Source of the DNA: a virus
Direction: 5' to 3' (one strand)
DNA: 33,318 nucleotides
IMG/VR virus record: IMGVR_UViG_3300028558_000075
Location: 1-33,318 of that record
The first letter of the stretch is position 1. Every line of letters starts with the position of its first letter. The position numbers and the translations under genes are program-made. Of this stretch, positions 3,018 through 26,560 are shown in pieces. The notes under the pieces were generated by a model. That model was not told the origin of the DNA, did no database searches, and worked only from the letters and a program-made list of their open reading frames with translations.

Positions 3018-3226
3018 CCACCGCCGTCAAAATAACGAACACGGATTCGCACCACAAGCTGCGCGTCGAGGCCGTCGAAGGACCTAATTACACCTTCTCT
3101 GTCATTCGCATTTTGGCCCCCGGGGAAAGCTGGGAGGGTCACGTCTGGTCGATTAGGGCCTTGCGCATTTCAGATGAGGCCGTATATACACCTTACTCCG
3201 ATCACACTCACCCCAGGACCCCATGA
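3014..3226 (+). CDS. 70-residue beta-rich hypothetical protein
   Basis: Starts MTTAVKITNTDSHHKLRVEA and looks like a small beta-sandwich (alternating hydrophobics, L-A-P-G-E-S-W-E-G-H-V-W turn). There is no export signal. ATGA overlaps on both sides place it firmly in the operon. Small proteins with a 'vkvtNtDsh..v.v........l.pGes....vw' pattern are found near phage spike or tail-fibre genes, but no function is assigned. Confidence 0.55.
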   Translation: MTTAVKITNTDSHHKLRVEAVEGPNYTFSVIRILAPGESWEGHVWSIRALRISDEAVYTPYSDHTHPRTP

Positions 3227-3720
3227 AAAAAGCCATCTCATTTGTGATTCTCTCCCTGCTCGCCGTCGCGTGCGGAGCGCAAGCGCCGGTCGAAACGACC
3301 GATACCGCGTCGCAGGACATCGTCGTCCACGGCCCCTACGAGTGCAAACAGAACGGCGTTCCTTACACCGACGCGAATAACCCGATCCTGAACGGTCCGG
3401 CGTGGTGTTTTTCGTCGCAAGAGGTTGGGTACACGGTTCCCGGCTCGAACACGTTCGTCCCTTACCTCGGGCCGATTCAGAAGTACACCGGCAGCTTATC
3501 GCAGTGTGGGTACAGCGGTTATGCCAACCTCTGTTACGCCAATATCGGGTGTACAACGAACAATACGCAGACGCTCGATCCGAATATCTACGTCACCGAC
3601 AACCTGACGTGGCTACCGGCTAGCGGCGTTTGGCAAGATATCCAATTTTCGAGCAACGTGGCGACGCACCAAACCTGGAAAACCTACGTAAACATTATAT
3701 TTTTTCCCGGAGCATGCTAA
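3223..3720 (+). CDS. exported lipoprotein A of a tandem pair
   Basis: A 165-residue protein with a lipoprotein signal ending in L-A-V-A-C17. The mature part is acidic and threonine-rich at first (VETTDTASQD), then a Cys-rich, Tyr/Asn/Gly-rich beta domain with about eight Cys, typical of a disulphide-stabilised surface protein. Its first 22 residues match those of the following gene at 19 positions, while the mature domains do not align. It couples to the upstream gene by ATGA. Possible roles are cell-surface change, superinfection exclusion or lysis; none is shown by sequence. Confidence 0.7.
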   Translation: MKKAISFVILSLLAVACGAQAPVETTDTASQDIVVHGPYECKQNGVPYTDANNPILNGPAWCFSSQEVGYTVPGSNTFVPYLGPIQKYTGSLSQCGYSGYANLCYANIGCTTNNTQTLDPNIYVTDNLTWLPASGVWQDIQFSSNVATHQTWKTYVNIIFFPGAC

Positions 3721-3721: not shown

Positions 3722-4237
3722 ATGAAAAAAGCCCTCGCATTTGTGATTCTCGCCCTGCTCGCCGTCGCGTGCGGCGCTCAGGCTCCCGGATCGCCGGACG
3801 GCGGCACGGCCGAAGCTGTCGGCACGACGGAACAGGCATCGTGCTCCGGGTGCGGCTGCACCTATCCTGCACCACCCGGTGTCGAGGGCGCCAGCAAAAT
3901 CACAGCTCAGAATACCGTCTGCGGCTGGGGCAATCAAATCACCGAGAGTTGGGGTAACTGTCCAGGGGAGGTCTTCGGCACGGTGCAGGCGGCAAGTACC
4001 ATCGTGGGGTCGCCACTTTGCACGCAAACGGATGCCTGCCATATCACGTGCAGCAACGACGCTTTCACCTGGTATTACAATTGGATGGGTGACGGTTCGG
4101 ACCCAGTCCAGGAGTGGTCGTATACGCAATATTTCCCACTGATCAATAATTGCTACATCGGCGGTCGCGTCACCAAGCTGCACCTAATCCCGTATTCGAT
4201 CAACCGCGTGACCCATCAAGTCGTCTGCGGCACATGA
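3722..4237 (+). CDS. exported lipoprotein B of a tandem pair
   Basis: A 171-residue lipoprotein (lipobox L-A-V-A-C17) with the same leader as its neighbour. The mature region opens with a low-complexity linker (SPDGGTAEAVGTTEQ) that resembles linkers after lipoboxes in myxobacterial exported proteins, then a Cys-rich domain (C-S-G-C-G-C near the start, about ten Cys in all) with W-Y-Y-N-W and W-S-Y-T-Q aromatic clusters. It begins one base after the previous stop, with GGAG at 3710-3713. It is the last gene of the plus block and faces a minus-strand block. Function unknown. Confidence 0.7.
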   Translation: MKKALAFVILALLAVACGAQAPGSPDGGTAEAVGTTEQASCSGCGCTYPAPPGVEGASKITAQNTVCGWGNQITESWGNCPGEVFGTVQAASTIVGSPLCTQTDACHITCSNDAFTWYYNWMGDGSDPVQEWSYTQYFPLINNCYIGGRVTKLHLIPYSINRVTHQVVCGT

Positions 4238-4268
4238 TCGTCCGCGAAGCCACGCCGCACGCTCTAAA

Positions 4269-4472
4269 CTAGAACCCGTCCGGGTTCCACACCCTTCGAC
4301 ACACTCCGGGGCGCGGCGAAAGGTCGTCCGCCCCGCAGGCATACCCTTCCGGGCAACAGCCCGGCTCCGTCACGCAGCGCGTTTGCCCAGTGCCACAAGC
4401 CGGGACGAACGCTCTGCGCGGCAGAGCCGGGCTGTTGCACGCCAGGAGCAGGAGAAGCGCCAGATACCTCAC
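4269..4472 (-). CDS. small Cys-rich lipoprotein
   Basis: A 67-residue protein whose GTG start at 4472 overlaps the stop of the upstream membrane gene (GTGA), which decides the start. It begins with a very short signal, V/M-R-Y-L-A-L-L-L-L-L-A-C12, a good lipobox. The mature part has six more Cys (26, 33, 39, 40, 46, 58) in a C-x6-C-x5-CC-x5-C-x11-C pattern, suggesting a small disulphide-knotted domain. Together with the membrane gene before it, it looks like a minus-strand counterpart of the lysis/lipoprotein cluster on the plus strand. A spanin role is possible but unproven. Confidence 0.6.
   Translation of the reverse strand: MRYLALLLLLACNSPALPRRAFVPACGTGQTRCVTEPGCCPEGYACGADDLSPRPGVCRRVWNPDGF
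4272..4287. terminator. perfect small hairpin at convergent gene ends
   Basis: Bases 4272-4287 form gaacccg-tc-cgggttc, a 7-bp stem between the converging lipoprotein genes. It lies in the last codons of the minus-strand gene. There is no clear T-run on either side (tagtttag on the minus side), so intrinsic termination is only possible, not well supported. Confidence 0.3.
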
Positions 4473-4564
4473 GGCCCGTACTTCTTCCAGATGAACGCGG
4501 CGAACTTGACCGTGAAGGTAGAGACGAGCGTGGTGATAACGGCAAATAGCAGACGCCCGCCCAT
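4469..4564 (-). CDS. 31-residue one-helix membrane peptide
   Basis: Reads MGGRLLFAVITTLVSTFT and ends with a basic tail, F-I-W-K-K-Y-G-P. It is little more than one transmembrane helix. ATG 4564 is the only normal start in the open stretch, because the frame has a stop upstream near 4672 and no ATG/GTG/TTG in between. The GTGA overlap with the lipoprotein gene supports it being translated. The 61 bases between it and the upstream gene show no other feature. Holin-like or inner-membrane spanin-like roles are guesses. Confidence 0.5.
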   Translation of the reverse strand: MGGRLLFAVITTLVSTFTVKFAAFIWKKYGP

Positions 4565-4625
4565 GCCGACCCAAGAGTCGGGGATCGACAGGGCGAACGC
4601 CGCATTGCCGACGCTTAGGCAGATC

Positions 4626-4835
4626 TCACTCGGATGCAGGTGCAGGGGGCGTCTCCTCGGGGGTGGAAACCGTTAGCTCTTCAAGGTTGATCGAAACGGT
4701 CGGGTCGGCCGGGTCGAAACCCAGCGCCGAAACCAAGCCTGCGCCGAAGTCCGATACCCGCTGCTGGGCGGCGGTACGCGCGTCGAGTAGGGTTCGAAAG
4801 TGGGCGACGGTAGCTGGGAGTATGGAAGCTTTCAT
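4626..4835 (-). CDS. 69-residue hypothetical protein
   Basis: Starts MKASILPATVAHFRTLLDAR at 4835, where ATGA overlaps the end of the glycosyltransferase gene; a longer reading up to 4913 would run inside that gene and is rejected. The N-terminal half is helical, the C-terminal tail acidic and Pro-rich (EETPPAPASE). No export signal or domain recognised. Its place between a glycosyltransferase and a membrane peptide gives no firm clue. Confidence 0.55.
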   Translation of the reverse strand: MKASILPATVAHFRTLLDARTAAQQRVSDFGAGLVSALGFDPADPTVSINLEELTVSTPEETPPAPASE

Positions 4836-5479
4836 GGGCTGGATCTTAGCTCGGCGGCACGGTTCGTGCCAGCGTATTGTCCGATCTGGCCGTCGTGCAT
4901 GACGGGGGCGCAAAGCAGGTCGATGTTTACTCCGAGAGCTTTCAGTCGCTCGCAGAACGAGTAGTCGTCGCCGAGCCCGTCGCCTTCAAAAGTCATCGGC
5001 TGGAAGAGCGCCCAGATCGGCCAGCGGGCGAGTAGTGAACGCTGCTTGAGCTCGGGATGTGCGAGCGCCATCCTTTGAATGGTCTCGCGTGTCATCATCG
5101 AGCACCCTAGCGCAACGCGGTGCCCGTAGACCAGGTAATCGGCGCCCCCGCGGCGAAGGTACGGGACCGCAGTAACAGCCTTGACCGATCGGTACATGTA
5201 CTCTGCAACTTCGGGCGCGATCAGGATGTCCGCATCGATCCAAAGCAGGTGCGTGTAGCGCGGATCGGCCAGGAAAGCCCCCACTGCTTCCGCGCGCGCC
5301 CGGTCTACCATCATCGCGTCGTAACGGGCGAAAACGGACGCTACGCCGATGCGTTCGAACGCCAACCGGATTCGCTCGACGCACAACGAAAATTCGCCGT
5401 CGAGACCCCGGTAGCCGAGGGGCGAGCCCTCCGGCACTTCCGGCGGAACCTTGTACGATGGTGTGGCGATGAAAATCAT
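4832..5479 (-). CDS. glycosyltransferase-like protein (GT-A type)
   Basis: A 215-residue protein that should transfer a sugar from a nucleotide-sugar. It starts M-I-F-I-A-T-P-S-Y, the first strand of a GT-A fold; D82-A-D84 in L-L-W-I-D-A-D-I-L is the metal-binding DxD, G-D-D-Y-S-F-C-E-R (170-178) fits the acceptor/catalytic acidic motif, and H195 in V-M-H-D may be the late metal ligand. ATG 5479 overlaps the previous stop (ATGA) and has GAGGG upstream; a start at 5611 would lie within the fibre gene. Directly downstream of fibre genes, it may glycosylate virion fibres; DNA-base or host-surface modification are alternatives. Confidence 0.75.
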   Translation of the reverse strand: MIFIATPSYKVPPEVPEGSPLGYRGLDGEFSLCVERIRLAFERIGVASVFARYDAMMVDRARAEAVGAFLADPRYTHLLWIDADILIAPEVAEYMYRSVKAVTAVPYLRRGGADYLVYGHRVALGCSMMTRETIQRMALAHPELKQRSLLARWPIWALFQPMTFEGDGLGDDYSFCERLKALGVNIDLLCAPVMHDGQIGQYAGTNRAAELRSSP

Positions 5480-5904
5480 ACGACCCTCACGGTTGATAAG
5501 ATCTGCCAATCCGTTTGAGTAGTAATCAAAGGGGTCAATGTCAAGTTCAGGTTCGTTCCGCTGATTACGCCGGAAAAATAGGAAGTACCACTGGTCAGGG
5601 TGGTAGACCAAATGAAAGGATTGCCATTGGTCGTTTGCAGGAATAGTCTGGGTCGCAACGTCAGCGTCCCGCTATTGTTGTAAACCTCGAATGCCGTGTG
5701 CTCGCCGAGTGCCGCGCCTGCCGACGTGCGGCCGATACCGAAGACCTCGACCACGACGCCCGTGCTCGCGGCGATAGCGATCGTATCGTAGGTGACCCCG
5801 GTGACAGCGGTCGTGCGAATACGCGCGGGTCTCCGCGTCCAGAGCTCCGCTTGCGAGTTGAGCGTACCGGATGGCGTCGCGTTGTCGAAGGTGGGGGCGC
5901 TCAT
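5476..5904 (-). CDS. fibre-like virion protein, paralogue 3 of 3
   Basis: A 142-residue beta-rich protein starting MSAPTFDNATPSGTLNSQAE. It shares with the two upstream genes an N-terminal F-D-x(5)-G-x-x-x-x-Q-A-x-x-W-x-x-R motif, a middle D-T-I-A-I-A...G-R-T-S-A-G-A pattern and an ending T-Q-T-D-W-Q-I-L. ATG 5904 overlaps the previous stop; a start at 5934 is inside the upstream gene. No catalytic residues are seen. As it follows a collagen-like tail fibre gene it is probably a fibre tip, decoration or adhesin subunit. Confidence 0.65.
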   Translation of the reverse strand: MSAPTFDNATPSGTLNSQAELWTRRPARIRTTAVTGVTYDTIAIAASTGVVVEVFGIGRTSAGAALGEHTAFEVYNNSGTLTLRPRLFLQTTNGNPFIWSTTLTSGTSYFSGVISGTNLNLTLTPLITTQTDWQILSTVRVV

Positions 5905-6329
5905 ACGATGCTCGTATCGATCCAGGCCGACCAATCGGTCTGATTGGCCGACTTCGGTGTGATCTCAACCAGAAGATTCGTGCCGGAGGAAACAGCGCTG
6001 AGAAATGCCGTGTTGTTGGGGCTAGACGAATAGACGTAGAATCCGCCCAACACACTTAGTAGTGTCGTCATCGACGTGACAGTCAGAGTCCCGCTCACGT
6101 TTTTGACCAAAAAACACCCGCGCTCGAACTCGGTCAGGTTAGTGCCAGACGCTGACTGACGCCCCTCCAGATAGACTTCGCAGGCCATCACGGAGTTGTT
6201 CGGGACCGCGATCGACGCGAGGGCGGACAGCGCGAGTGTTGCAGTCTGGACACGATATACAGCCGAGCGCCAGACGAGCGCTTGCGTCGATGGCGTGCCA
6301 ACAAGAGAGATGCGATCGAAGACGGGCAT
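5901..6329 (-). CDS. fibre-like virion protein, paralogue 2 of 3
   Basis: A 142-residue beta-rich protein beginning MPVFDRISLVGTPSTQALVW. Its layout matches its two neighbours: N-terminal P-V-F-D and T-Q-A-x-V-W, a middle N-V-S-G-T-L-T-V, then S-S-G-T-N-L-L-V-E-I-T-P and N-Q-T-D-W near the end. ATG 6329 shares a base with the previous stop (TAATG), and the stop overlaps the next start (ATGA). Likely a small virion fibre or decoration subunit; the sequence shows no enzyme motif. Confidence 0.65.
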   Translation of the reverse strand: MPVFDRISLVGTPSTQALVWRSAVYRVQTATLALSALASIAVPNNSVMACEVYLEGRQSASGTNLTEFERGCFLVKNVSGTLTVTSMTTLLSVLGGFYVYSSSPNNTAFLSAVSSGTNLLVEITPKSANQTDWSAWIDTSIV

Positions 6330-6715
6330 TAGCAGGCCCACGCATCGACAAGCAGCTGCCAATCAACCGGGCCGGCGATGGCAGATGGAGTTTGCAGCGT
6401 CACGTTCGGCGCCGATACGACCTGAAATAGGTGCTGTCCAGCCGAGTTCGTCCAGATGACGCCGAAGGCAATAGTCGAGATCACGCCAGAGACATTTTGC
6501 CAGAGCACAACACCCCGCTCGGCCCACGCCGCGCCCGTCGACGTGTTGCGGCCGACAAGGAGGTACTCCATACCTACGACGGTACCGCTCGCAACGGTGA
6601 TCGTGTCCAGCGTGACATTGGTGCTATTCGACGTCGCGCAACTCGGCCGCTGCGTCCATACCTCGGCCTGCGTGTTGAGCGATCCGCTGGTCGTGAGCTG
6701 GTCGAAGACGGGCAT
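6329..6715 (-). CDS. fibre-like virion protein, paralogue 1 of 3
   Basis: A 128-residue beta-rich protein beginning MPVFDQLTTSGSLNTQAEVW, the first of three tandem related genes. It has the D-T-I-T-V-A-S-G-T-V-V and L-V-G-R-N-T-S-T-G-A-A-W-A-E segments that align with the third copy, and ends in P-V-D-W-Q-L-L. It starts directly after the tail-fibre stop (6716) and ends TAATG with the second copy. Interpreted as a head or tail appendage protein, from context and from fold-like composition. Confidence 0.65.
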   Translation of the reverse strand: MPVFDQLTTSGSLNTQAEVWTQRPSCATSNSTNVTLDTITVASGTVVGMEYLLVGRNTSTGAAWAERGVVLWQNVSGVISTIAFGVIWTNSAGQHLFQVVSAPNVTLQTPSAIAGPVDWQLLVDAWAC

Positions 6716-7921
6716 TTAGGCCGCCGCGATCGTGGTGACGGTGCCCGACGAGCCGCGATATTTGAGCGCGCCAGACGAGACGTACAGCACGCCGCCCCCG
6801 GACGGATTCGTCGTGGGGTCCGTCGTGGCGTTCGCGATACCGATGACGCCGGAGCCGCCCCCGAAGGAGACGGTTGTACCGAACTGACAGCCGTTTGTCT
6901 GTGCCGAGAACTTCAACACGGACGACACCATCATATTGACCGGGATCGCGTTCGTGCCGTCGAGCCTTATCTCACCGCTGCCGCCGCCATAATATCCGCT
7001 CGTCCCTTGGAGGGTCCCGGAGCCATCGCGAAACTGCAGCTGCGCTTTAGCCGTGGCGGATCCTTGAATCGCCAGCACGCACCCTGTATCTAGCGACTGG
7101 ATGATGTGCCCCGAAACCGTGGCACTTCCAGCATGGCCCTGTATGGTAACGCCTGCGATATTACTAGTGCCGTTACCTCCGATATAGACGTTATTGCTGG
7201 TATCTGTCGCCAGCAGCAACATGTCGGCAGTGTTCCCCGCGTTGCGCGCAGTCAGCGGAGTCGCGTTGTTTGAAAACCGCAGCAACCCCGCGGCGGCCGG
7301 TGTTGCCCCGAACGTGAGCGGCGCGGATACGGGTACGACGCCGCCGCCGCCGCCGTTCCCGGAAATGCCGGCGACCCATTGATGCGTGTTCGTCGAGCCG
7401 GCCAGATCGTTCGCCCATGTGACGCCCGCAGACGCCGCTGCCCAAGTAGGCACGCCGCCGACGATGGTGAAGACCTGAGTATTGCTGCCGTCCGCCACGA
7501 CGCTCAGGACGCCCGCGACGCTCCGAAGCATCCCAGTGCCCGAGGGTGTGAACGACTGCCCTGAGGGGGTCACCCCGGCGCCGGAATTGATGACCGTGGT
7601 CGGCGCAGCGTTGACGGCTATGGCAGGCGTCGGGTTGGTCAGAACAATGTGCGTTCCGTCGGGGACGGACGATACCGTGTAGTACCCCCCACCCGGCACG
7701 AAGACCCATTGCCCGACCTGCGCCCAGCCCGATTGCGCTACCTGGGCGCTAACCGTGCTCCCGACCGCAGGTTGCGTGAAGTTCGCCGTCGTGGTCGTGT
7801 AAGCGTTGAACCCGTTCGCTCCGTTGGCCCCGTTGGTGCCCGGGGTACCGCTACCAGGTACCCCGGGCGGCCCCTGAACGGCCAAGATATTCGAGATGTT
7901 GAACCGCGTTGGTAGGGGCAT
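6716..7921 (-). CDS. tail fibre with collagen-like segment
   Basis: A 401-residue protein. After a short head ([16 protein letters not shown]) comes a Gly-x-y collagen-like run at about residues 17-38 ([12 protein letters not shown], then GANGANG), which forms triple-helical stalks in phage fibres. The remainder is Gly/Ser/Thr/Ala-rich beta structure, and the last 35 residues ([14 protein letters not shown]...[12 protein letters not shown]) are the common C-terminal end of tail fibre proteins. It should bind the host surface. ATG 7921 has AGGGG a few bases upstream, and TAAAAT lies 9 bases before it without a clear -35 box. Confidence 0.85.
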
Positions 7922-7933
7922 CGCCCCTAGATT

Positions 7934-8356
7934 TTACCAACCAGAAGGGAAGTATCGCAGAGCCCACTTGCCCAGGCCGATAGCGTCGACCTCGTCGTGC
8001 GAGGGGTTGTGAATCAACGCCTTTTCCCGGGGAGTGAACTGGCTCGTGATGCGGCGCGTCATTACGTCGCCGTTGATCGTGCCCTTCCATTCGCGCGGGG
8101 TGACGAGCTTGACGGCCGTATAGGAGTACATCTCTTCGATCCGGCCGACGATACGAGCAAGCTTCAAGATGTCGGAAGGACGGGCTTTTGACCTGGGGTA
8201 TATCTGGGGGTTCTCAATAACGACGAAATTGATCCAAAGGAACCCTCGAATCACTCGGAGATCCCCGTGACCGGAGCTCGTAAAGACGCCGTCTTGGAAT
8301 ATGGCCCAGCCGAGGTTATCCTTCGTCCCCGGGTCGATCGCTAGTAGTCGAATCAT
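7934..8356 (-). CDS. RuvC-like Holliday-junction resolvase
   Basis: A 140-residue RNase H-fold nuclease. The first strand L-L-A-I-D8-P-G-T carries the first catalytic Asp, F-V-V-I-E48-N-P the Glu, and S-H-D121-E-V-D124-A-I-G the C-terminal Asp pair, which is the full RuvC acid set at the usual spacing for a short phage version. Such enzymes debranch replicated DNA before packaging, which fits its coupling (ATGA at 8353-8356) to the small-terminase gene. The protein is shorter than cellular RuvC but similar to other phage resolvases. Confidence 0.85.
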   Translation of the reverse strand: MIRLLAIDPGTKDNLGWAIFQDGVFTSSGHGDLRVIRGFLWINFVVIENPQIYPRSKARPSDILKLARIVGRIEEMYSYTAVKLVTPREWKGTINGDVMTRRITSQFTPREKALIHNPSHDEVDAIGLGKWALRYFPSGW

Positions 8357-8925
8357 TTGTTTTTTGCTTCGATTTCCATAATGATTTTCAGGTCTTCCGT
8401 CGACATCTTGCTGTAATCGACCGAGGTCTGATTTTCAACTCTCTCGGTCGGGAGCCCCGCGATCAGGTTGGTGAACTTCATCAAGAGTTCCGCCAGCTTG
8501 ATCACGTTCTTCTCCTGCATAATCGGCATTTTCTCCCATTGGGGATCGTTCGCCTTCTCGAGCATGAGCTGGATTTCTCGCCGAACTACCTGAAAGCCCT
8601 CGTTTATCGTCGCGACAGAGTGCGCCGCCGACTCGCGCATGAGTTTTCCGACGGTCTCTTTCTTGATCTCGACGGCGTGCTCTTCGAGCATGCGGTCGTA
8701 AGCCTCGCAGCGCTGGACCCACTTGTGCTCACTCGACCACTTCGCGATCTGGGCCGTGTCTTTGCCGTGTAGACGCTGCAAGCGCCTCGGCCAGGAGAGC
8801 TCGCGGTACGCGCGGAAGAACCGAAAGGCTTCGTCCGGCTCGTTCAGTTGCTGGAGCCAAGGCTCGGGCGCCTTCGCCAGGTCCTTCGGATCATAAACCG
8901 CGAGCTCGCGGTCGGTGCGGTTCAC
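8353..8925 (-). CDS. terminase small subunit-like protein
   Basis: A 190-residue protein. The segment P-D-E-A-F-R-F-F-R-A-Y-R-E-L, then the recognition region T-A-Q-I-A-K-W-S-S-E-H-K-W-V-Q-R-C-E-A-Y-D, matches the HTH module of phage small terminases ('AyraFraYrdlg...siekWSsrhgWveRaaayD'). It should recognise the phage packaging site and hand DNA to the large subunit, whose gene is 12 kb away on the other strand. GTG 8925 is chosen because it overlaps the upstream stop (GTGA) and has ggaaagg before it; ATG 8988 would lie 67 bases inside the neighbour. A long C-terminal helix region probably oligomerises. Confidence 0.7.
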   Translation of the reverse strand: MNRTDRELAVYDPKDLAKAPEPWLQQLNEPDEAFRFFRAYRELSWPRRLQRLHGKDTAQIAKWSSEHKWVQRCEAYDRMLEEHAVEIKKETVGKLMRESAAHSVATINEGFQVVRREIQLMLEKANDPQWEKMPIMQEKNVIKLAELLMKFTNLIAGLPTERVENQTSVDYSKMSTEDLKIIMEIEAKNK

Positions 8926-9410
8926 GACCGGCACCTTTCCAGGAACACCCGCCAGGGGTAGAACATCCCGTCGAAGAAAAAGTGCCACGATTTCCCTGTC
9001 TTGCCCCCGGTGAAAAACAGCGTGTAGGCCGGCTTGCCGTCGATGAGATCGATCCGGTGGTAATCGTTGCCTCGGATGAAGTTGAACGTGAAGGACCGCA
9101 CTCGACGGCGCTTGATCGTAAGGTCAGGCTGGAGTCGATCCTCCCAGTACCCGCGCCAGAGCACGAATGAAAACGCCCACTTCCACGGGTGGGAGTGCAA
9201 GGCGCTGGAGTCATCGCTTCGGTGAAACTTGTGCAGGTACGCGGCGACGCCGAACAACCTGCGCTCTTTGATCGGGACCTTGCGATAGTTCCCGTGCGCG
9301 TCGAAAGGGTCTAGACCGTCGGCCGCCTTAGGGCGCCCGATCAGGTAAATTCGCGTTAGGTACGCCGTCCCTTTGCCGCGGTGATCTTCGATGACGCGAG
9401 GCTTGAACAT
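8922..9410 (-). CDS. cupin-like phage protein, unknown function
   Basis: A 162-residue protein with cupin features: L-H72-S-H74-P-W-x-W-A-F-S-F-V-L-W-x-G-Y-x-E90-D, then Y-H118-R-I-D-L, giving the His-x-His, Glu and His metal ligands of a small beta-barrel, followed by T-L-F-F-T-G-G-K-T-G-x-S-W-x-F-F. Proteins with this pattern are frequent in phages but their substrate is unknown. The gene is preceded by a very good promoter (9417-9444) only 6 bases from ATG 9410, and its stop couples to the small-terminase GTG. No Shine-Dalgarno site can fit between promoter and start. Confidence 0.65.
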   Translation of the reverse strand: MFKPRVIEDHRGKGTAYLTRIYLIGRPKAADGLDPFDAHGNYRKVPIKERRLFGVAAYLHKFHRSDDSSALHSHPWKWAFSFVLWRGYWEDRLQPDLTIKRRRVRSFTFNFIRGNDYHRIDLIDGKPAYTLFFTGGKTGKSWHFFFDGMFYPWRVFLERCRS

Positions 9411-9416
9411 GGGGCT

Positions 9417-9444
9417 ATTATATAGCTCGGAAGTTTTCAGTCAA
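9417..9444 (-). promoter_or_regulatory. promoter with start codon at the expected +1 (leaderless)
   Basis: On the minus strand: TTGACT (9444-9439), 16 bases, TATAAT (9422-9417), then agcccc and ATG at 9410. The -10 box is a perfect sigma-70 consensus. Transcription normally starts about 7 bases after the -10 box, which is the A of the ATG. The site overlaps the last codons of the helicase gene. Confidence 0.75.
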
Positions 9445-10380
9445 GGTATTGGACGAATACCAGCGGCCCGGCCAGGCTAGCCCGTAGTGCAAGTGCAGCG
9501 CGGGTTTCGTGCGTCGGCAATCGCGCGCGCGACCGTGAGCTTGTTCGAGCTCGCACGCGAGTTTCTGTCGCCCGAGCTCGTTCGCGTCGACCCCGAAGAA
9601 CTCCGCTTCGATGTCGACGGATAGCAGGTTTTGATAGTGATCTCCTATGGTTGCAAAGACGTCGCACCCTTGCCAAGTGTCTAGCCCTTCGATCGCGCCG
9701 AAGTGACTGACTTCGAAGGTCTCGGCATATTCCTTGACCTTGTGCGTTAGCTTCTTCGGGCAGCACACGAACACGCGAGACCCCGGCCGACGTCGGTAGA
9801 TGTCGTCACAAATCGCACGAAGGCGTTCCGGGTCTTGTGCAAGCGCGCTAGTCGATGCCTGCGACACCAGCACGCGCACCCGCTCGATAGCCACGCCCGG
9901 CGAGTCTTCGACGTTGTGCTGCCGGTAGATCACATCCGGGCGCAAGGCCTGAAGGATCAACCGTGGGAGCCCCGCGGCGAGAATCGTGCCGCCTTGCGAC
10001 TTCAGATGCGCGGCGGCGGTGCTCAGGCGCACGACGTCGACGCGCCCCTCAGAGAACGTGAGCTTGCTGCTTTCGTGGGCCGCCCGGCGCACGTCCCCCG
10101 CGACCTTCACCGGGGCAAAAGACAGGGCGATAAGCTTGGCGTTGAAACCCCCAGAGCTCTCGAACCCGGGGATTTTGAACGAGTCGGGGATTTCTGGCAC
10201 TTCGCAAGCTCGGGCTCGGGCCGAGAGGTCATCCGTCCCCGCCATCAAAGCCTTGGCCCAGGGCTCGACCGCCTTGCGCCACGCCGCCCCCGTCGAGTCG
10301 AGAGCGGTCGGGATATCGGCCAAGGCTATGGAGAATTGATCCAGAACTTCGGGCCATTCGTCGATGATGATATTTTTCAT
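9418..10380 (-). CDS. helicase C-terminal half (separate piece of the primase-helicase)
   Basis: A 320-residue protein that begins exactly at a Walker B/DEAD-type motif, M-K-N-I-I-I-D-E-W-P-E (residues 4-11), and so lacks the Walker A, which ends up in the gene before it (10465-11736). Later come a motif III-like T-I-L-A-A-G-L-P (132-139), H-F-G-A-I-E-G-L-D (226-234) and a motif VI Q280-A-H-G-R-A-R-D. This is the second part of the helicase domain of phage primase-helicases. It lies in the same reading frame as the upstream half, with an 84-base spacer. ATG 10380 has no strong ribosome site. It may act with the N-terminal half as a two-chain enzyme. Confidence 0.75.
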   Translation of the reverse strand: MKNIIIDEWPEVLDQFSIALADIPTALDSTGAAWRKAVEPWAKALMAGTDDLSARARACEVPEIPDSFKIPGFESSGGFNAKLIALSFAPVKVAGDVRRAAHESSKLTFSEGRVDVVRLSTAAAHLKSQGGTILAAGLPRLILQALRPDVIYRQHNVEDSPGVAIERVRVLVSQASTSALAQDPERLRAICDDIYRRRPGSRVFVCCPKKLTHKVKEYAETFEVSHFGAIEGLDTWQGCDVFATIGDHYQNLLSVDIEAEFFGVDANELGRQKLACELEQAHGRARDCRRTKPALHLHYGLAWPGRWYSSNTLTENFRAI

Positions 10381-10398
10381 GGGCTAGCTCTGCCGTTT

Positions 10399-10455
10399 CA
10401 AGTCAGTGTCCCTTATGATCTAAGATCTTCTTCTCTTGAAGGGGACACTGACTTG
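10399..10455. repeat. perfect 14-bp inverted repeat in the break of the primase-helicase
   Basis: caagtcagtgtccc (10399-10412) and gggacactgacttg (10442-10455) are exact inverse copies around a 29-base AG-rich (on the minus strand) spacer. The whole 84-base space 10381-10464 is in frame with both gene pieces and holds two TAG codons after the TGA of the first piece. The stem could be an RNA processing or termination signal, a protein-binding site, or the ends of a small inserted element. A further partial copy, gggacac, follows at 10455-10461. Confidence 0.85.
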
Positions 10456-10464
10456 GGACACACC

Positions 10465-11736
10465 TCATCCGTAGCGATGTAGCATAGCATGAGAGCTTAC
10501 CTCACCTTTCAACTTGTCGCCGACGCCCTCGGCCACCGTGCAGCCCTCTCTGGTAGGGCAGTTCATGCAGGCATATTTGCTCGAAACTCCCGCATCCCTC
10601 AAAGCTTTTACGGTTTTTGGTTGAACGCATCCCCCCCGCTCGGGTAGGGGGACGTCGACCCCGGCCGCCTGGTGCGCGCCGCAGGCGAGGCGGTGCTGGG
10701 TCGCTAGGTCATTGGTCTTACTCAAGAGCACGTTCTTGATGCCTTCGTGAATCGCGCCGGGGGGTAGGTGTCGGCGGGTTTCGTGGCTCTTGCCCGCGCC
10801 CGTCGTCAGGTCGACGGCGCTAAGCTGTCCCCGGATCCCCCCGGCCTTGAGGGTCTCGAGCAGGGCCCGAGGCGTCGCGGTGACGGGCTGGGCCGGGGGG
10901 ATAATCGTCGCGGCCCAATCGGAATATGTTACGTGGCCGCAAGAGGCCTTCATGCACTTGAACCGGCCATCGGGCAGGATCGCCGTGGTCGACGTGAGGG
11001 CGCCCCCGTTGTGCCTTTCGGTCGGGCAATAGACGGCATAGACCCCCCGGCCTACGTGACACGCCTTGCCTTCCGAGATAGCTATGGCCAGTACCGGGTC
11101 GTCCGGGCCCCAAGACGCGCTCACGCTTTTCGTAGCGCGAGGGCGGGCCTTTCTAGGAGCCCTAGGGGTGAACGGTCCGGGGTCGAAGTCGAGGGGGGCA
11201 AGGGCGCCTTCGAGTACAGGGGTCTCGTCTTTGCCGTCACGCTTCACGAACGGAAGGCGCATGTGCCGACCAAAGGACCCCGCGGTGTGATCGACCCCGA
11301 GAAACCCCCGGCGCTCGAGTTCGAGGTACCAAGCCTTGGCGGTGAACTCATAAAATGCGCTGCCTAATATTTCGACCTGCCAGACTAACCTAACCCCCGA
11401 GCGTGTCTTGTAAATCAAGCATCCCCCCATGACCCGAGCGCGAGCCGCTTCGGTCTCCTTCCAGGCGTCGAGCGCGTCGCCCGTGAGCTTGTGCGCGTCG
11501 AGGTCTGCGAAGAGTAGAACGTACGTTAGTTCACCGGGGTAGTCCTTCGTGAGCCGGTAGGCCGGCAAGCCCTCGGGGATGGCGTGCGCGAGAGCGAACG
11601 CATCGTAGTCGTAACGGCGCGTGAAGACATCGGAAATAGACACACATTCCCCGGGCCTAGCGAGGGGCCATTTGGGGTAACCGAGCTGCTTCGTCCCGTT
11701 CATCACGGCGACGTGGACAATAGCCGGCAATAGCAC
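10465..11736 (-). CDS. primase (AEP/PrimPol-type) fused to helicase N-terminal part
   Basis: A 423-residue replication protein. Residues about 73-165 fit an archaeo-eukaryotic-type primase: L-L-F-A-D78-L-D80-A (metal acids), Y-K-T-R-S-G-V-R-L (nucleotide binding) and V-D-H-T...R-H-M-R-L-P. A zinc-ribbon follows (C237-P-T-E-R-H...F-K-C261-x4-C266-G-H), then Walker A T-T-G-A-G-K-S (311-317), a Cys cluster (352, 370, 390, 393, 399) like an iron-sulphur helicase, and S-S-H-A-M-L just before the stop. Motif II onward is in the next gene. The GTG at 11736 leaves 14 bases to the divergent gene; ATG 11703 is an alternative start. Confidence 0.8.
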   Translation of the reverse strand: MLLPAIVHVAVMNGTKQLGYPKWPLARPGECVSISDVFTRRYDYDAFALAHAIPEGLPAYRLTKDYPGELTYVLLFADLDAHKLTGDALDAWKETEAARARVMGGCLIYKTRSGVRLVWQVEILGSAFYEFTAKAWYLELERRGFLGVDHTAGSFGRHMRLPFVKRDGKDETPVLEGALAPLDFDPGPFTPRAPRKARPRATKSVSASWGPDDPVLAIAISEGKACHVGRGVYAVYCPTERHNGGALTSTTAILPDGRFKCMKASCGHVTYSDWAATIIPPAQPVTATPRALLETLKAGGIRGQLSAVDLTTGAGKSHETRRHLPPGAIHEGIKNVLLSKTNDLATQHRLACGAHQAAGVDVPLPERGGCVQPKTVKALRDAGVSSKYACMNCPTREGCTVAEGVGDKLKGEVSSHAMLHRYG

Positions 11737-11742
11737 TACCTT
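11714..11742 (+). promoter_or_regulatory. weak promoter candidate for the replication block
   Basis: TGGACA (11714-11719), 17 bases, TACCTT (11737-11742), with ATG 11751 eight bases later. The -35 box is the same as that of the methyltransferase promoter, but the -10 box is poor (three of six matches). It lies in the divergent gap and inside the primase start region. Confidence 0.35.
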
Positions 11743-11750
11743 ACTGAGCT

Positions 11751-12431
11751 ATGCAGTTTCGCGCAACCATGCTCACGACAGGGCTCCAATGCAAACGCGC
11801 CTGGTCATTCCGTTATTTGGCCGGAATGGAGGCCCCGGACACGGCGGCGTTCCAGGACGGTAGGGCGGGACACAAGTACATGGAAGACCTCGTCTCTCAC
11901 GGCACGTTGCCGGACACGTCTACGAAGATGGGGCGCGTCGCAGCGGTGCTAGAACCTTACGTTCGCCCCTGGGTAAAAAACAAGCTGGCGCAGGTCGAGG
12001 TCGAGTTCGACTTTCGGGGCGCGAAGCATTCTTGGGGTGGGCGAAAGGACCTTGAAGTTCCCGGAATGCTGATTGATTACAAGTTCATAGCTGACCTCAA
12101 GTACGCAATGACCCCGAGTCAGCTACTGACCAACCCGCAGGCATTACTTTACGGGCACGAGATTTTGCAGCGGACGGAGGTAGAGACGATCACGCTCCAG
12201 TGGCTCTACGCGGAAAAGAAGAAGCCTCACCGGCACCTTCCGGTCGTGACTGAGATGTCGCGGACGCACGCGGCACTCGGATTTCAGGTGCTAGAAAACG
12301 TCGCTGAAGAGCTCGCGGCATTGACAGAAACAACGGTCGACGCTATTGTTGCAAACGTACCTGGGAATTACTCCCACTGCGGCGCCTACGGCGGTTGTCC
12401 CTACCGAGCGCAATGCAAGCGCTATTTCTAA
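11751..12431 (+). CDS. Cas4/RecB-like PD-(D/E)XK exonuclease with iron-sulphur Cys
   Basis: A 226-residue nuclease of the RecB/AddB/Cas4 group. C14 near the N-terminus and C210, C216 and C222 at the C-terminus form the typical four-Cys iron-sulphur clamp. H41 (G-R-A-G-H), D100 (G-G-R-K-D-L), D109 and K111 (I-D-Y-K) are the catalytic set, and Q130-x3-Y134 is the RecB-type Q-x-x-x-Y motif. It would resect DNA ends for phage recombination or replication. It is the first gene of the plus replication block and is followed by an AT-hook protein and a Snf2-like helicase. There is no adjacent CRISPR array. Confidence 0.8.
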   Translation: MQFRATMLTTGLQCKRAWSFRYLAGMEAPDTAAFQDGRAGHKYMEDLVSHGTLPDTSTKMGRVAAVLEPYVRPWVKNKLAQVEVEFDFRGAKHSWGGRKDLEVPGMLIDYKFIADLKYAMTPSQLLTNPQALLYGHEILQRTEVETITLQWLYAEKKKPHRHLPVVTEMSRTHAALGFQVLENVAEELAALTETTVDAIVANVPGNYSHCGAYGGCPYRAQCKRYF

Positions 12432-12441
12432 GGAGCTAAAA

Positions 12442-13107
12442 ATGACTGACGTGTCCGATGACATTTTCGCACGTATGAAACAGCTCGCGTCTTCGGGGGG
12501 TGCGACCGTCGCGCCGCCGGCACCGGAGACCTTGGCTCCACCGGAGAATCCGACGCCCGGGGGCAACCCGCACCCCGCGGCCAGCTTGCCTATCGAGCCC
12601 ACCGAGGCGACCCCTACTGTCAACCGCAAGCCAGGACGGCCGCCGGGGGCGAAGAACAAGCCTAAGGCGCCGAAGGTAGAAGATGCCAACGGCACGTTCA
12701 CCGTCAACCCCGAGACGGCCACTAGCACGTTCACCGTCAACCCCGAGCCGTGGTCGCTTGACGCCACGGTGGGCGAAGCCGGCGCGCCCGCCGACGCCGT
12801 AGAGGTCGACCCCAAGGTCCCCGCCATTCGCACGCTTTACGTCAACTGCATCCCAATCGGCCGCGATCCTGCCGCACTTTTCTCTGACATTTTGGCGGCG
12901 GCCAAGAAGACACTCCCTTGCGACTACCGACTCGGCGAGGATCACTCTTTCGGGATGGGGCCGGCTAAGTTGCTTGAGGCGGTAGGCCGCGAGATCGAAA
13001 AAAGGCCCGGGGTGAGCATCATCATCGATACGTGTAGCCCCGAGGCCTATATCTGCATCGAAATGCTAAGGAGCCTAGCTCACGAAGTTATCATCGGTAC
13101 GCGCTAA
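12442..13107 (+). CDS. AT-hook-containing protein of the replication block
   Basis: A 221-residue protein starting MTDVSDDIFARMKQLASSGG at 12442, with AGGAG at 12431-12435. Residues 20-60 are a disordered Pro/Ala linker; K-P-G-R-P-P-G (63-69) followed by A-K-N-K-P-K is an AT-hook, which binds the minor groove of AT-rich DNA. A repeated F-T-V-N-P-E (86-91 and 97-102) follows. The last 100 residues look like a compact alpha/beta domain (I-R-T-L-Y-V-N-C-I-P-I-G... V-S-I-I-I-D-T) of unknown function. The stop shares a base with the helicase start (TAATG), so both are coupled. It may load or guide the helicase on DNA. Confidence 0.6.
   Translation: MTDVSDDIFARMKQLASSGGATVAPPAPETLAPPENPTPGGNPHPAASLPIEPTEATPTVNRKPGRPPGAKNKPKAPKVEDANGTFTVNPETATSTFTVNPEPWSLDATVGEAGAPADAVEVDPKVPAIRTLYVNCIPIGRDPAALFSDILAAAKKTLPCDYRLGEDHSFGMGPAKLLEAVGREIEKRPGVSIIIDTCSPEAYICIEMLRSLAHEVIIGTR
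12692..12747 (+). repeat. 23-bp direct repeat in the AT-hook gene
   Basis: Bases 12692-12714 and 12725-12747 are identical (gcacgttcaccgtc... to ...ccccgag), 33 bases apart and in frame, encoding the doubled F-T-V-N-P-E. This is a small in-frame duplication in a linker. Confidence 0.85.
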
Positions 13108-14774
13108 TGGCATTCGGCGGGAGCCACAACCCGATCAAGACCTCGGAGGATCTTCGGCGAGTGCTGGACCTTCCCGGGCGCGGGCCACTGCCGCCGTTGC
13201 CAGCCGTAGCCGACAACCCCCTTTGCAAGCTGAAGCCCGTTCAGGAGCAAGCGCTTCGCGAGTTCATAGCTTGCAAAGGGGGCGCGGGGCCGATCGCGGT
13301 CGGGGGCGGGAAGACGCTCATCTCCTTGCTTTTACCCCCACTGCTCGGTAACCCGAGGTCCGTGCTTCTGCTGCCTGGAGGTCTCATCGAAAAGACCGAG
13401 GTCGAGCGCATCAGGTACCGCCGGCAGGGGTGGAACGTGTCGATGTCGATGCGCATGATCGGGTACGAAGCCCTCGGCCGCAAGGCCATGCACGGCGAGC
13501 TCGAGTTCATTGGGCCGGAGTTGATCATCGGCGACGAAATACACAAGTTGAAACACCGCAAATCCGCGGTCACCCGACGTGTCGACCGCTACATGGACGC
13601 GCACCCTGAGACGATCTTCGTTGGGCTGGGCGGAACCTTCATCGAAAAAGAGTTGGAGCTCTTCGCGCACATCCTGATCTGGGCGCTGAAAGAGCGAGCC
13701 CCGGTGCCATTCGCGCGCGACATCCTGCGCGAATGGGGAGAAGCTTTGAACCCCAACGTGGACGACTTCAAGCGCCGTGCGCCAGGGGCGCTTCTGGAGC
13801 TATCCCCGGGGGCGGAAGATGGCCCGACGGCGTTCCGAGACAAGCTCCGGGATACCCCCGGGATCGTGTTCAGCACCAACGATCAGGATTGCAAGAGTTC
13901 CATCATCCTGCGCCGGATTACCTACGAACACGCGAAGGTCACGGACGACAACTTCAAGACCTTGCGCATGTTGAACGAAACCCCTGACGGGTGGGCTTTG
14001 ACCGAGGCCATGGAGGTCTCGGCCTGCGCGCGCCAACTAGCTCTCGGGCTGCACTATATTTGGGCCCCTCGCCCGCCGGATCCTTGGTACGCGGCCCGCA
14101 AGGCTTGGGGGAAGTTCGTGCGCGATGTGCTGTCCCGCTCGAGTACGGTCGACTCGGAATCGCAAGTTGTGAGCGCCGTGGACGCGGGGGAGATCGATGA
14201 TCTAGGGCTCTTGGCCGCGTGGAGGAAAGAGGCTCCGACGTTCGAGATCAACGTGCAGGCCGTCTGGCATGACGATGCCGCGCTGAAGGTCGCAGAGGCT
14301 TGGATTCATAAGGAGGACGAGCCGGGCATCGTCTGGACGCAGCATTCGTTTTTCGGTCGCGAGCTCGCGCGACGTACAGGTCTTGATTACTTCGGGGCCG
14401 GCGGAATGAACTCGCGCAAGGAGCGCATCGACGACGAATCGCGGGCGGGTTACGGGAAACCCTGCATCGCATCGGTGAAGGCGAACGCGACGGGGCGCAA
14501 CCTCCAACCCTGGTCGAGGGGGCTCATCACGTGCCCGCTCCCCGATGCCGGGCTCTGGGAGCAACTAATCGGCCGTCACCACCGCACGGGGCAACAGGCC
14601 GACACTATCCAGATAGACGTCTTTTATACCTGCAAAGAACACATGGACGCCTTCGATCGGGCCCTCGACGTCGCCGCGTCGAACTTCGCGCTGAACGGGC
14701 AGACGAGCAAGCTCCTCATCGCGGACATACTGCCGCCCCCGAAAAAACACCGCGGTAACGCCTGGTCTGCTTGA
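13107..14774 (+). CDS. Snf2-like superfamily 2 helicase/translocase
   Basis: A 555-residue ATPase. A Q-like L-K-P-V-Q (42-46) precedes Walker A A-V-G-G-G-K-T (64-70); D-E-I-H (143-146) is motif II, G-L-G-G-T-F (173-178) motif III, A-T-G-R-N-L-Q (461-467) motif V, and Q486-L-I-G-R-H-H-R-T-G-Q motif VI, the last being typical of the Snf2 group. It should translocate on DNA and could remodel replication or recombination intermediates. It overlaps the AT-hook gene by one base. A consensus-like promoter overlaps its stop codon and serves the following genes. Confidence 0.85.
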   Translation: MAFGGSHNPIKTSEDLRRVLDLPGRGPLPPLPAVADNPLCKLKPVQEQALREFIACKGGAGPIAVGGGKTLISLLLPPLLGNPRSVLLLPGGLIEKTEVERIRYRRQGWNVSMSMRMIGYEALGRKAMHGELEFIGPELIIGDEIHKLKHRKSAVTRRVDRYMDAHPETIFVGLGGTFIEKELELFAHILIWALKERAPVPFARDILREWGEALNPNVDDFKRRAPGALLELSPGAEDGPTAFRDKLRDTPGIVFSTNDQDCKSSIILRRITYEHAKVTDDNFKTLRMLNETPDGWALTEAMEVSACARQLALGLHYIWAPRPPDPWYAARKAWGKFVRDVLSRSSTVDSESQVVSAVDAGEIDDLGLLAAWRKEAPTFEINVQAVWHDDAALKVAEAWIHKEDEPGIVWTQHSFFGRELARRTGLDYFGAGGMNSRKERIDDESRAGYGKPCIASVKANATGRNLQPWSRGLITCPLPDAGLWEQLIGRHHRTGQQADTIQIDVFYTCKEHMDAFDRALDVAASNFALNGQTSKLLIADILPPPKKHRGNAWSA

Positions 14775-14799
14775 CCTTATCCGATTCGCTTCGTATAGT
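14771..14799 (+). promoter_or_regulatory. sigma-70-like promoter
   Basis: TTGACC (14771-14776), 17 bases, TATAGT (14794-14799). Transcription would start near 14806, leaving a short leader with the strong ribosome site aaggaga (14808-14814) before ATG 14821. It overlaps the helicase stop. This site, unlike the leaderless set, has a normal leader. Confidence 0.7.
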
Positions 14800-14820
14800 G
14801 ACAATCCAAGGAGATAGGAC

Positions 14821-14994
14821 ATGACCTTCAACTCTTTCATGGCAGAATACAAGGGGCAGTCCCCGGAAATCCTCTCGGTCCAGAACGCTTTTCAACCGCG
14901 CAAGGGCCGAGTCACGGAAAACAGCCTGGTCAAAGACTACGGCCCCGAGGCGCATTTCGCTTGGGCGGCCTTCGTCAAGGCCGGCGGACACTAA
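14821..14994 (+). CDS. 57-residue hypothetical protein
   Basis: Reads MTFNSFMAEYKGQSPEILSV and ends F-V-K-A-G-G-H. It is preceded by a good promoter and a strong ribosome site, so it should be highly expressed. No domain, signal or membrane segment is visible. It stands just before the single-strand-binding-like gene and polymerase, so an early or replication role is likely but unknown. Confidence 0.65.
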   Translation: MTFNSFMAEYKGQSPEILSVQNAFQPRKGRVTENSLVKDYGPEAHFAWAAFVKAGGH

Positions 14995-15024
14995 CCTAAC
15001 AACGAACGCACGAAGAGGTAGAAC

Positions 15025-15456
15025 ATGATTCCCGATATCGGCAACGCAAAAGACCTTTCATTCAAGACACCTTACTTCCCGGACGGGTTCCAAGGTCGAT
15101 GTGTCATCGACGAGATGCGAGAGCTCAGTGGCTTTGCCGGCCACGCTCTTGTAATCACCTTGACACCAGAAACTAGCAATCTGCCCGATGTAGCCGTCGG
15201 CGCTCAACACTCGTGGTATGTGTCCTTCGCTACGCCGAAGCAGATCGAATGGAACGCCCCCGTCGTGAAGCAATTCATGATGGCCGCCGTTGGGGCAAAG
15301 ACGGAGGAGGCTCGGAATAAGGTAGCCCCGAGCATTACCGCCCTGACCAACGCCGCCGTCCAGCCCAACCAGCCGATGAAAGGCACGAAGATCAACCTTC
15401 GGACTCAGAAGAACCAGAGCGGTTCGTTCACGAAGCACTTTTTTTCTCCGGTCTGA
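15025..15456 (+). CDS. putative single-stranded-DNA-binding protein
   Basis: A 143-residue protein. The layout (F-Q-G-R-C-V-I-D-E-M-R-E-L..., a middle L-V-I-T-L-T, then V-G-A-Q-H-S-W-Y-V-S-F and W-N-A-P-V-V-K-Q-F-M-M-A-A-V-G) resembles OB-fold phage replication proteins in which a 'G.r.sW.v......a...ikqFl.aalG' segment recurs. It would coat exposed strands for the polymerase, whose gene follows. It has a ribosome site (agagg) and ends before a terminator. The call is by pattern and context; there is no acidic tail of the usual SSB type. Confidence 0.5.
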   Translation: MIPDIGNAKDLSFKTPYFPDGFQGRCVIDEMRELSGFAGHALVITLTPETSNLPDVAVGAQHSWYVSFATPKQIEWNAPVVKQFMMAAVGAKTEEARNKVAPSITALTNAAVQPNQPMKGTKINLRTQKNQSGSFTKHFFSPV

Positions 15457-15466
15457 GCTTAGCTTT

Positions 15467-15488
15467 ACCCCGCTTGGTAGCGGGGTTT
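15467..15488 (+). terminator. rho-independent terminator
   Basis: accccgc (15467-15473), loop ttggta, gcggggt (15480-15486), a 7-bp GC-rich stem followed by a short T-run (ttt). It sits 11 bases after the stop of the SSB-like gene and likely separates it from the polymerase unit. Confidence 0.65.
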
Positions 15489-15560
15489 CGGGTGGCTAAG
15501 GCTAAGTCTGGCGGTGACCACGTTGCCGTTGGAGAGTAGGTTCGATTCCTACCCACCCAC
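15489..15560 (+). other. tRNA-like element (T-arm and acceptor stem), not a standard tRNA
   Basis: gtagg-ttcgatt-cctac (15536-15552) is a perfect tRNA T-arm with consensus loop, and gggtgg (15490-15495) pairs with ccaccc (15553-15558) as an acceptor stem, a total of about 72 bases. In between, however, no proper D-arm or 5-bp anticodon arm with a 7-base loop and U33 can be drawn. It may be a decayed tRNA, a tRNA mimic, or a leftover of a host tRNA 3' end. It lies between the terminator and DNA polymerase start. Confidence 0.45.
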
Positions 15561-15570
15561 TGAGGTTTCC

Positions 15571-17445: not shown

Positions 17446-17795
17446 ACGATGACGGGACGCCGCCGCAGGTCTTCGCGACCGGGGGCGTGCGGAGCAAGGC
17501 GAGTGGCAAGGGTAGATTCGACCTAATCCCCGCACACCCAATGCTGCGATTGGCGCGCCATTACGAGAACGGTGCCATCAAGTACGAGGATCGAAACTGG
17601 GAGAAGGGCCTGCCCCTTAGCCGGTTCGTCGACTCGGCGCAGCGACACATGAACGCTTTCATGTCAAACGACCGGACGGAAGACCACTTGGCCGCCGTGC
17701 TTTGGAACGTCATGGGGTACCTCTGGACGGAGAACGAGATCGACAAGGGTCGCCTGCCCGCCGAGTTGGCCGACGTACCTTGGAGCCCGTCATGA
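17424..17795 (+). CDS. dATP/dGTP pyrophosphohydrolase-like protein (DUF5664 type)
   Basis: A 123-residue protein. G-R-F-D-L-I-P-A-H-P-M-L-R-L-A-R-H and G-A-I-K-Y-E-D-R-N-W-E-K-G, then S-A-Q-R-H-M-N-A-F and D-H-L-A-A-V-L-W-N-V, match the all-alpha phage family named dATP/dGTP diphosphohydrolase N-terminal domain, related to MazG folds; acidic and Lys residues bind metal and nucleotide. It probably shapes the dNTP pool next to the polymerase. ATG 17424 has AAGGAG (17408-17413) and overlaps the polymerase end by 22 bases. Its stop overlaps the next ATG. Confidence 0.7.
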   Translation: MGTYDQVNDDGTPPQVFATGGVRSKASGKGRFDLIPAHPMLRLARHYENGAIKYEDRNWEKGLPLSRFVDSAQRHMNAFMSNDRTEDHLAAVLWNVMGYLWTENEIDKGRLPAELADVPWSPS

Positions 17796-18055
17796 GACTG
17801 CTAGAAGAAGTGCAAAGAGACCTGGGGATCGCTCAGCACAAGTTGGATGAATTACACGACGAGCAACAGGCGATCCTGAAGGTCGGTAGTACGGCGCACC
17901 TGACAACGGAGTTCTTCCACCTTATAGGCAAGCTCCAGTCGGGCGACGCCTGGCTAGTGGACAACGTGGCTTCTGCGGAGAGAACCGTCAAAGCTGTAAT
18001 TTACGACAGGGACGGTAACGTTTACTACTTCATTAGAGACGCCGAAAACACCTAG
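17792..18055 (+). CDS. 87-residue hypothetical protein
   Basis: Begins MRLLEEVQRDLGIAQHKLDE with a long helix (to about residue 30), then a mixed domain ending D-R-D-G-N-V-Y-Y-F-I-R-D. ATGA overlap with the gene before fixes the start. No family recognised. It lies in the nucleotide/replication stretch, and could be a small regulatory partner, but nothing in the sequence shows that. Confidence 0.6.
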   Translation: MRLLEEVQRDLGIAQHKLDELHDEQQAILKVGSTAHLTTEFFHLIGKLQSGDAWLVDNVASAERTVKAVIYDRDGNVYYFIRDAENT

Positions 18056-18060
18056 AAGCC

Positions 18061-18369
18061 ATGCCTTATAAAGACCCTGAAGCTAGGAGGGCCTGGCATA
18101 AGGCCTACAAGAAGGCCCGCTACGAAGCAAAAAAAGCGCGACTGGCTGCTCAACGCACTACGATTCATTATGAACGAACCGACGATCTGATGAATCTAGA
18201 GTGGTATCAGGCCTATCAAAAGGCCTACCGGCAGACCCCCGAGTATAAGGCCCGCCTGAAGGCCTACCGGCAGACCCCCGAGTATAAGGCCCGCCATGCG
18301 GTCCACAATAAGGTCTATTATGCAAGAAAGAAACAGGAGAGGCTAAATGCCGAATCATCAAAGACCTGA
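18061..18369 (+). CDS. basic Lys/Tyr-rich protein with internal repeat
   Basis: A 102-residue, strongly basic protein starting M-P-Y-K-D-P-E-A-R-R-A-W-H-K-A-Y-K-K-A-R-Y, a phage opening often seen in HNH- or zinc-type small proteins, but no HNH or Cys motif is present. Residues about 54-79 hold two copies of K-A-Y-R-Q-T-P-E-Y-K-A-R. The charge suggests nucleic-acid binding. It starts 5 bases after the gene before and overlaps the ParB/phosphoesterase gene by 23 bases, whose ribosome site lies within it. Confidence 0.6.
   Translation: MPYKDPEARRAWHKAYKKARYEAKKARLAAQRTTIHYERTDDLMNLEWYQAYQKAYRQTPEYKARLKAYRQTPEYKARHAVHNKVYYARKKQERLNAESSKT
18220..18295 (+). repeat. 37-bp tandem repeat, 39-bp period
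   Basis: Bases 18220-18256 and 18259-18295 are identical and in frame, 13 codons per unit (K-A-Y-R-Q-T-P-E-Y-K-A-R-x). A degenerate earlier copy (Y-Q-K-A-Y) precedes them. The exact DNA identity points to a recent duplication. Confidence 0.9.
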
Positions 18370-26559: not shown

Positions 26560-26560
26560 C

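Follow-up and report, generated by a model that had tools for sequence, protein, structure and literature searches.

Three tandem paralogous genes behind a fibre gene of a metagenomic tailed phage, with a predicted fibre-type barrel fold

The locus considered here raises the question of what three small, adjoining and related genes contribute to a phage when they stand directly behind one of its fibre genes. The window, which is the whole stretch of DNA analysed, is one entire IMG/VR virus record (IMGVR_UViG_3300028558_000075; 33,318 bases). It belongs to a tailed phage that is represented in metagenome records only, and the presence of baseplate genes indicates that the tail is probably contractile. 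Among the best 15 of 1417 phage records, the closest terminases are those of Aeromonas phages vB_AsaM-56, 51 and 56 (39.3% identical), and a scan of GTDB genomes with the terminase, which reaches close relatives only, gave no match.

Gene order and neighbours

Between 9410 and 4832 the minus strand is closely packed with open reading frames, which encode, in turn, a dioxygenase-like protein, the small terminase, a resolvase, the fibre protein P0004, the three copies and a downstream protein (Table 1). The initial annotation had reported three tandem small genes here and given no strand; all three are present, lie on the minus strand and are read from copy 1 (P0003) through copy 2 (P0002) to copy 3 (P0001). 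The TAA stop of P0004 abuts the ATG of copy 1 (6713-6718), copies 1 and 2 meet in TAATG (6327-6331), copies 2 and 3 have a stop/start overlap of ATGA (5901-5904), and copy 3 and the downstream gene overlap by ATGA (5476-5479). A longer TTG-started reading frame is also listed for copy 3, and the ATG at 5904 is taken as its start because it falls in line with where the paralogues start (two residues longer). Inspection by eye shows no clear ribosome-binding site in the 30 bases upstream of each of the three starts, which fits translational coupling, and the three copies are probably coupled in this way. Scans of positions 4200-11800 found no excess of promoters (2, versus 1.5 in shuffles) or terminators (2, versus 6.0 in shuffles); the site most like a promoter (11/12) lies upstream of the cluster, at 9444-9417 on the minus strand.

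Table 1. Positions of the three copies and other genes in the window
Feature	Position	Strand	Remark
Large terminase	20586-22052		
Baseplate-like protein, third	22255-22863		
Baseplate wedge protein	22860-24107		
Baseplate wedge protein, second	24104-24499		
Major head protein	25468-26559		
Head maturation protease	27152-28171		
Member of a PHROG named cysteine dioxygenase	8922-9410	-	No Pfam match
Small terminase	8353-8988	-	
RuvC-like resolvase	7934-8356	-	
Fibre gene P0004	6716-7921	-	401 aa
Copy 1 (P0003)	6329-6715	-	128 aa; N-terminal conserved peptide and predicted eight-stranded beta fold
Copy 2 (P0002)	5901-6329	-	142 aa; most diverged of the three paralogues
Copy 3 (P0001)	5476-5904	-	142 aa
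Downstream gene	4832-5479	-	215 aa from ATG 5479; putative glycosyltransferase

The gene ahead of the copies had been described as a collagen-like fibre. A fibre gene does stand directly before them, but its collagen-like part is short within 401 residues: by eye it amounts to about seven G-x-y triplets near the N-terminus, interrupted once, and it is regular at residues 25-39. Residues 21-139 of P0004 match PHROG 31840 (unknown function, E 1.7e-16), and its C-terminal half (residues 208-401) matches 194 residues of Streptomyces koganeiensis hyaluronidase 4UFQ at E 3e-5, a match in which the composition bias is large, at 16.6 bits. Without gaps, the final 26 residues align with 4UFQ at a score of 93, versus a maximum of 42 in 5000 shuffles. 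Hyal_Sk (4UFQ) is described as a PL16 enzyme consisting solely of the central triple-stranded beta-helix (PMC11669647). From its sequence, P0004 seems to be a trimeric fibre with its own C-terminal end cap and is perhaps polysaccharide-degrading. Scans of IMG/VR and of phage records for close relatives of P0004 found none.

The glycosyltransferase that had been named as the neighbour on the other side fares less well. A gene does adjoin copy 3, but it has no match in Pfam, NCBIfam or the PDB and matches a PHROG of that name only at E 0.41; its longer reading frame of 259 residues matches PHROG 1574 (unknown function) at E 3.3e-7. Its D-A-D motif, which we take to be a glycosyltransferase sign, makes this a possible assignment. 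No relative of this gene was found in phage records.

Further records of the virus overlap the window. IMGVR_UViG_3300028556_000018 is a sister record of the same virus (99.94% identical over window positions 8353-26077 and 100% over 26078-33318). With 42,030 bases it extends beyond the right end of the window, where its genes include one for a tape measure protein; it starts inside the resolvase gene, the neighbour of the small-terminase gene, and therefore does not include the three-copy region. That region is also absent from a 7,278-base record, which corresponds to window positions 21005-28282. Between the resolvase and small-terminase genes the sister record (L010, 1-300) has about 228 additional bases, absent from the window near 8353, with TCATT at both flanks; this segment is perhaps a small accessory gene of one strain only. 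A 61-base intergenic element occurs at two sites in the virus (window positions 10399-10459 and L012 positions 6768-6828; 93% identical), its window copy has inverted arms (AAGTCAGTGTCCC ... GGGACACTGACTT), and it is a possible operator or promoter region. Two adjacent plus-strand genes that look lipoprotein-like by eye (3223-3720 and 3722-4237) have 54 bases in common at the beginning (94% identical) and no DNA match beyond them. Repeat proteins are encoded at 48-449 on the plus strand (hexapeptide-like by eye, with internal DNA repeats at most 80% alike and matches to PHROGs of unknown function) and at 32745-33317 on the minus strand (GIPSTEAFGAG-like units and a match to a minor tail protein PHROG, E 5e-21).

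Paralogy and pattern of divergence

The three genes are true paralogues. BLASTP gives local identities of 39% for P0001 and P0003 (E 4e-19), 35% for P0001 and P0002 (E 3e-17) and 32% over 114 columns for P0002 and P0003 (E 8e-12), and in the pairwise alignment check that had been proposed, all 2000 shuffles per pair scored lower (Z 24.5, 21.4 and 15.2). A profile of the three copies has exactly three matches in the window, the copies themselves. Among the copies, codon position 2 is best conserved (0.53-0.60) and position 3 worst (0.35-0.44), and pS (0.62-0.70) exceeds pN (0.45-0.54), as expected of genes read in the annotated frame, although synonymous sites are near saturation. That near saturation suggests that the duplications are old or that the copies were acquired separately. 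We infer that the row itself arose by duplication. The window has no self-match within 5476-6715, and a near-identical template repeat of the end of a gene, as expected for the variable protein of a diversity-generating retroelement, was not seen at 4700-8400.

The conserved positions are unevenly distributed. In the three-copy alignment 23 of the 127 ungapped columns are invariant, and the opening motifs of the initial annotation, F-D and Q-A-x-x-W, are invariant in all three copies. Its central G-R-x-S/T-x-G pattern is exact in P0001 (GRTSAG), and G-R is invariant throughout, but the motif is one residue longer in P0002 (GRQSASG) and P0003 (GRNTSTG). The D-W pair is likewise found in all three, but nine residues before the C-terminus. 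The region up to W22 is the best conserved, with 8 of 20 ungapped columns invariant, compared with 15 of 107 further on (Fisher p 0.011, for a boundary picked after the alignment was seen). Identities up to W22 and beyond it are 9/20 versus 37/119 for P0001 and P0002, 13/20 versus 38/107 for P0001 and P0003, and 11/20 versus 27/108 for P0002 and P0003. The bodies are therefore at 25-36% identity.

Searches for more distant members of the family covered several collections. No relative of the three proteins was confirmed in IMG/VR, where the scans need exact or near-exact short peptides, or in GTDB genomes by short-peptide matching, both of which reach mostly close relatives, and tblastn against 50,697 phage records gave nothing at E <= 0.01. 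With the threshold at E <= 10, P0001 matched two Staphylococcus phage records (E 0.4), which are taken as chance. At E <= 1 the three proteins have no match in Pfam and a single match in PHROGs, which is taken up below; in NCBIfam P0001 matches a Maf-like family (E 0.031; 13.6 bits versus a cut-off of 290), again taken as chance. The three-row profile, which is shallow and of limited reach, matched no PDB chain at E <= 10. Against two further records of the same virus and two distant records the three-copy profile found nothing at E <= 1 (0 of 4), with three matches in the window as positive control. Three candidate sequence relatives were rejected on hhalign probability: PP_38 of cyanophage PP (0.25%), the phrog_240-like head protein at 25030-25458 (0.08%) and P0004 (0.31%).

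Predicted fold and proposed role

AlphaFold2 models of P0001 and P0003 were built on the three-row alignment and are not independent, since the same three sequences underlie both. Each model has eight strands, with a mean pLDDT of 63.9 for P0001 and 75.1 for P0003. In ten-residue blocks of P0003 pLDDT is 80-91 over residues 31-110, 67 at 111-120 and 82 at 121-128; it is below 50 for residues 1-20 in both models and for residues 88-106 in P0001.

The top VIA-align match of both models is the C-terminal domain of T4 gp9 (1qex 169-284; Z 9.1, rmsd 2.9 over 107 residues for P0001 and Z 10.6, rmsd 2.6 over 106 residues for P0003), tied with fibre gp42 of Klebsiella phage Kp9 (7xy1; Z 8.3 and 10.1). 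Models that lack a clear match usually reach a best Z of 7-8, and because 9-10.6 is only somewhat higher, the fold family is likely, short of proof. These are followed by Acinetobacter tailspikes (Z for P0001 and P0003 of 7.1 and 8.6 with 6c72, 7.7 and 8.2 with 6e1r, and 7.5 and 8.1 with 5w5p) and a Klebsiella phage baseplate entry, and phage fibre, tailspike or baseplate entries make up the best 7 of 50 rows in each list. With Foldseek, four PDB chains match the P0003 model at E <= 0.001, namely 7xy1, 5w5p and two of 6e1r; these fibre and tailspike matches have E 7.3e-5 to 5.9e-4 and TMq 0.33-0.50, and 0.50 is the maximum TMq among the five best rows. The 1qex entry is at rank 9 there (E 0.017, TMq 0.31, rmsd 11.2). 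In BFVD, Foldseek gives 62 and 115 matches at E 0.001 for the two models; those with names include viral collagen-repeat, YadA-like, tail-fibre and tailspike proteins, and most of the 50 rows shown are unnamed or uncharacterised. GOLD, CTLA-4 and animal or plant virus capsids low in the structure lists are taken as general beta-sandwich resemblance.

Both predicted models form an eight-stranded antiparallel barrel of about 110-120 residues, the strand direction being read from the superposition on 1qex. The copies thus likely have a barrel fold of the gp9 C-domain type, predicted for two of the three. The earlier label of fibre-type finds support in the predicted structure, as the two models align best with the gp9 barrel and with fibre or tailspike ends.

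Judged by these models and by the published descriptions cited below, the copies are best read as small, probably trimeric barrels at the side of the virion that faces the host. More specifically, we give a probability of about 0.5 to the copies being stand-alone virion mini-fibres or fibre-end proteins of a tail-fibre module, which were duplicated, form homotrimers and have glycan-binding bodies. Each copy would consist of a single eight-stranded beta-barrel, such as caps or links trimeric fibres in phages, preceded by a conserved peptide of 20-22 residues. Each protein would form a homotrimer, and the shared peptide would dock it on a common virion site, either the fibre P0004 or the baseplate. 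A common docking site is suggested by the conservation of this peptide together with its lack of confident structure in the monomer models. The diverged barrel surfaces may then bind different host glycans, and receptor-binding diversity, proposed initially, is a plausible role for the set. The gene context, with a fibre gene immediately before the copies and stop/start contacts along the row, favours a tail-fibre module. Two points count against this reading: these searches found no sequence-level link to fibre proteins, and P0004 seems to be capped already, so that a further tip may be superfluous for it.

Alternatively, the copies could be connectors or end caps and not receptor binders, since gp9-like trimeric barrels fold, cap or attach fibres, with each copy serving a different fibre or position. 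The conserved N-terminal peptide suits a fixed docking task, and T4 gp9, which is described as a fibre socket (PMC3004832), heads both VIA-align lists, tied with 7xy1. The copies, however, are without the baseplate-binding N-terminal part of gp9 (128-142 residues versus 288), and identity between their bodies is down to 25-36%. We regard this role as rather unlikely.

Head decoration by small jelly-roll cement trimers studding the capsid is improbable. The structure lists do include the cement trimer of phage KHP40 (7dou) and the capsid of KHP30 (7dn2), both at Z 5.0, as well as the Pam1 capsid (7eel, Z 4.9), but these values are about half those of the fibre rows. P0002, one of the three proteins, weakly matches 'Hoc-like head decoration' PHROG 14282 (E 0.04), its single PHROGs match; the recognised head genes, however, are at 25030-28171, far from the copies, and structural candidates are present there (25030-25458 and 26561-27148).

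Slightly more doubtful still is the suggestion of the initial annotation that the paralogues may form a hetero-trimer or alternative tips; in the form considered here, they would contribute one each to a C1q-like tip or serve as alternative tips of P0004. Exactly three paralogues adjoin one another, the fibre before them has a short collagen-like stretch, and C1q and TNF-like lectin domains occur lower in the structure lists, at Z of about 5, roughly half that of the best rows. The TNF-like jelly roll has ten strands, and eight are predicted in the P0001 and P0003 models. P0004 also appears to be self-capped, which weakens the need for the three proteins as its tips. T4 gp9, a relative of the fold, is described as a homotrimer (PMC3004832, PMC10253068). 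Listings and abstract openings of the literature on hetero-trimeric or tandem-duplicated fibre genes contained nothing matching. An obligate hetero-trimeric head on a separate stalk, as a phage analogue of the C1q A/B/C chains with a receptor surface per chain, is very improbable.

Comparison with known systems

As mini-fibres or fibre-end proteins, the copies would be familiar in one respect, since their predicted shape is that of a known phage-fibre part, and modestly new in another, namely the row of three free-standing copies of that fold. Phage receptor-binding or capping domains often terminate a long fibre protein. Here a domain predicted to be of this type is encoded separately, as three diverged small proteins, and the fibre before them seems to be self-capped. 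If the copies are host binders, the phage would multiply its binding heads by duplicating a gene of about 130 residues rather than the whole fibre. Their small size suits simple binding assays.

The gp9 C-terminal domain is described as a barrel of eight antiparallel strands that forms trimers and bears the long tail fibre, and the terminal domain of Klebsiella phage RaK2 fibre gp529 as resembling it (PMC10253068). The copies share its predicted fold over 106-107 residues at rmsd 2.6-2.9, and 5-9% of the aligned residues are identical. They lack counterparts of the gp9 N-terminal domains, and only about 20 residues precede the first strand. The ends of Kp9 gp42 (7xy1), Fri1 gp49 (6c72), vB_ApiP_P1 (6e1r) and AM24 (5w5p) also have a fold like that predicted for the copies, at 9-18% identity, but they are domains within long proteins, whereas the copies are separate genes, three in number, beside a fibre gene. 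A small stand-alone protein of cyanophage PP, U5PRH3 (166 aa; taken to be PP_38 by protein length), has a similar predicted fold (Foldseek E 6.5e-6, rank 26) and no sequence relation to the copies; its gene adjoins a terminase gene, and its next neighbour looks dissimilar. In a published database of injection-system fibres, the largest group is reported to be short mini-fibres whose putative saccharide-binding domain resembles that of 6E1R (PMC12923769). By that description these eCIS 'mini-fibers' are like the copies in being short proteins with a domain of the kind predicted here, and differ in that their group has an N-terminal eBAP2 domain (PMC12923769).
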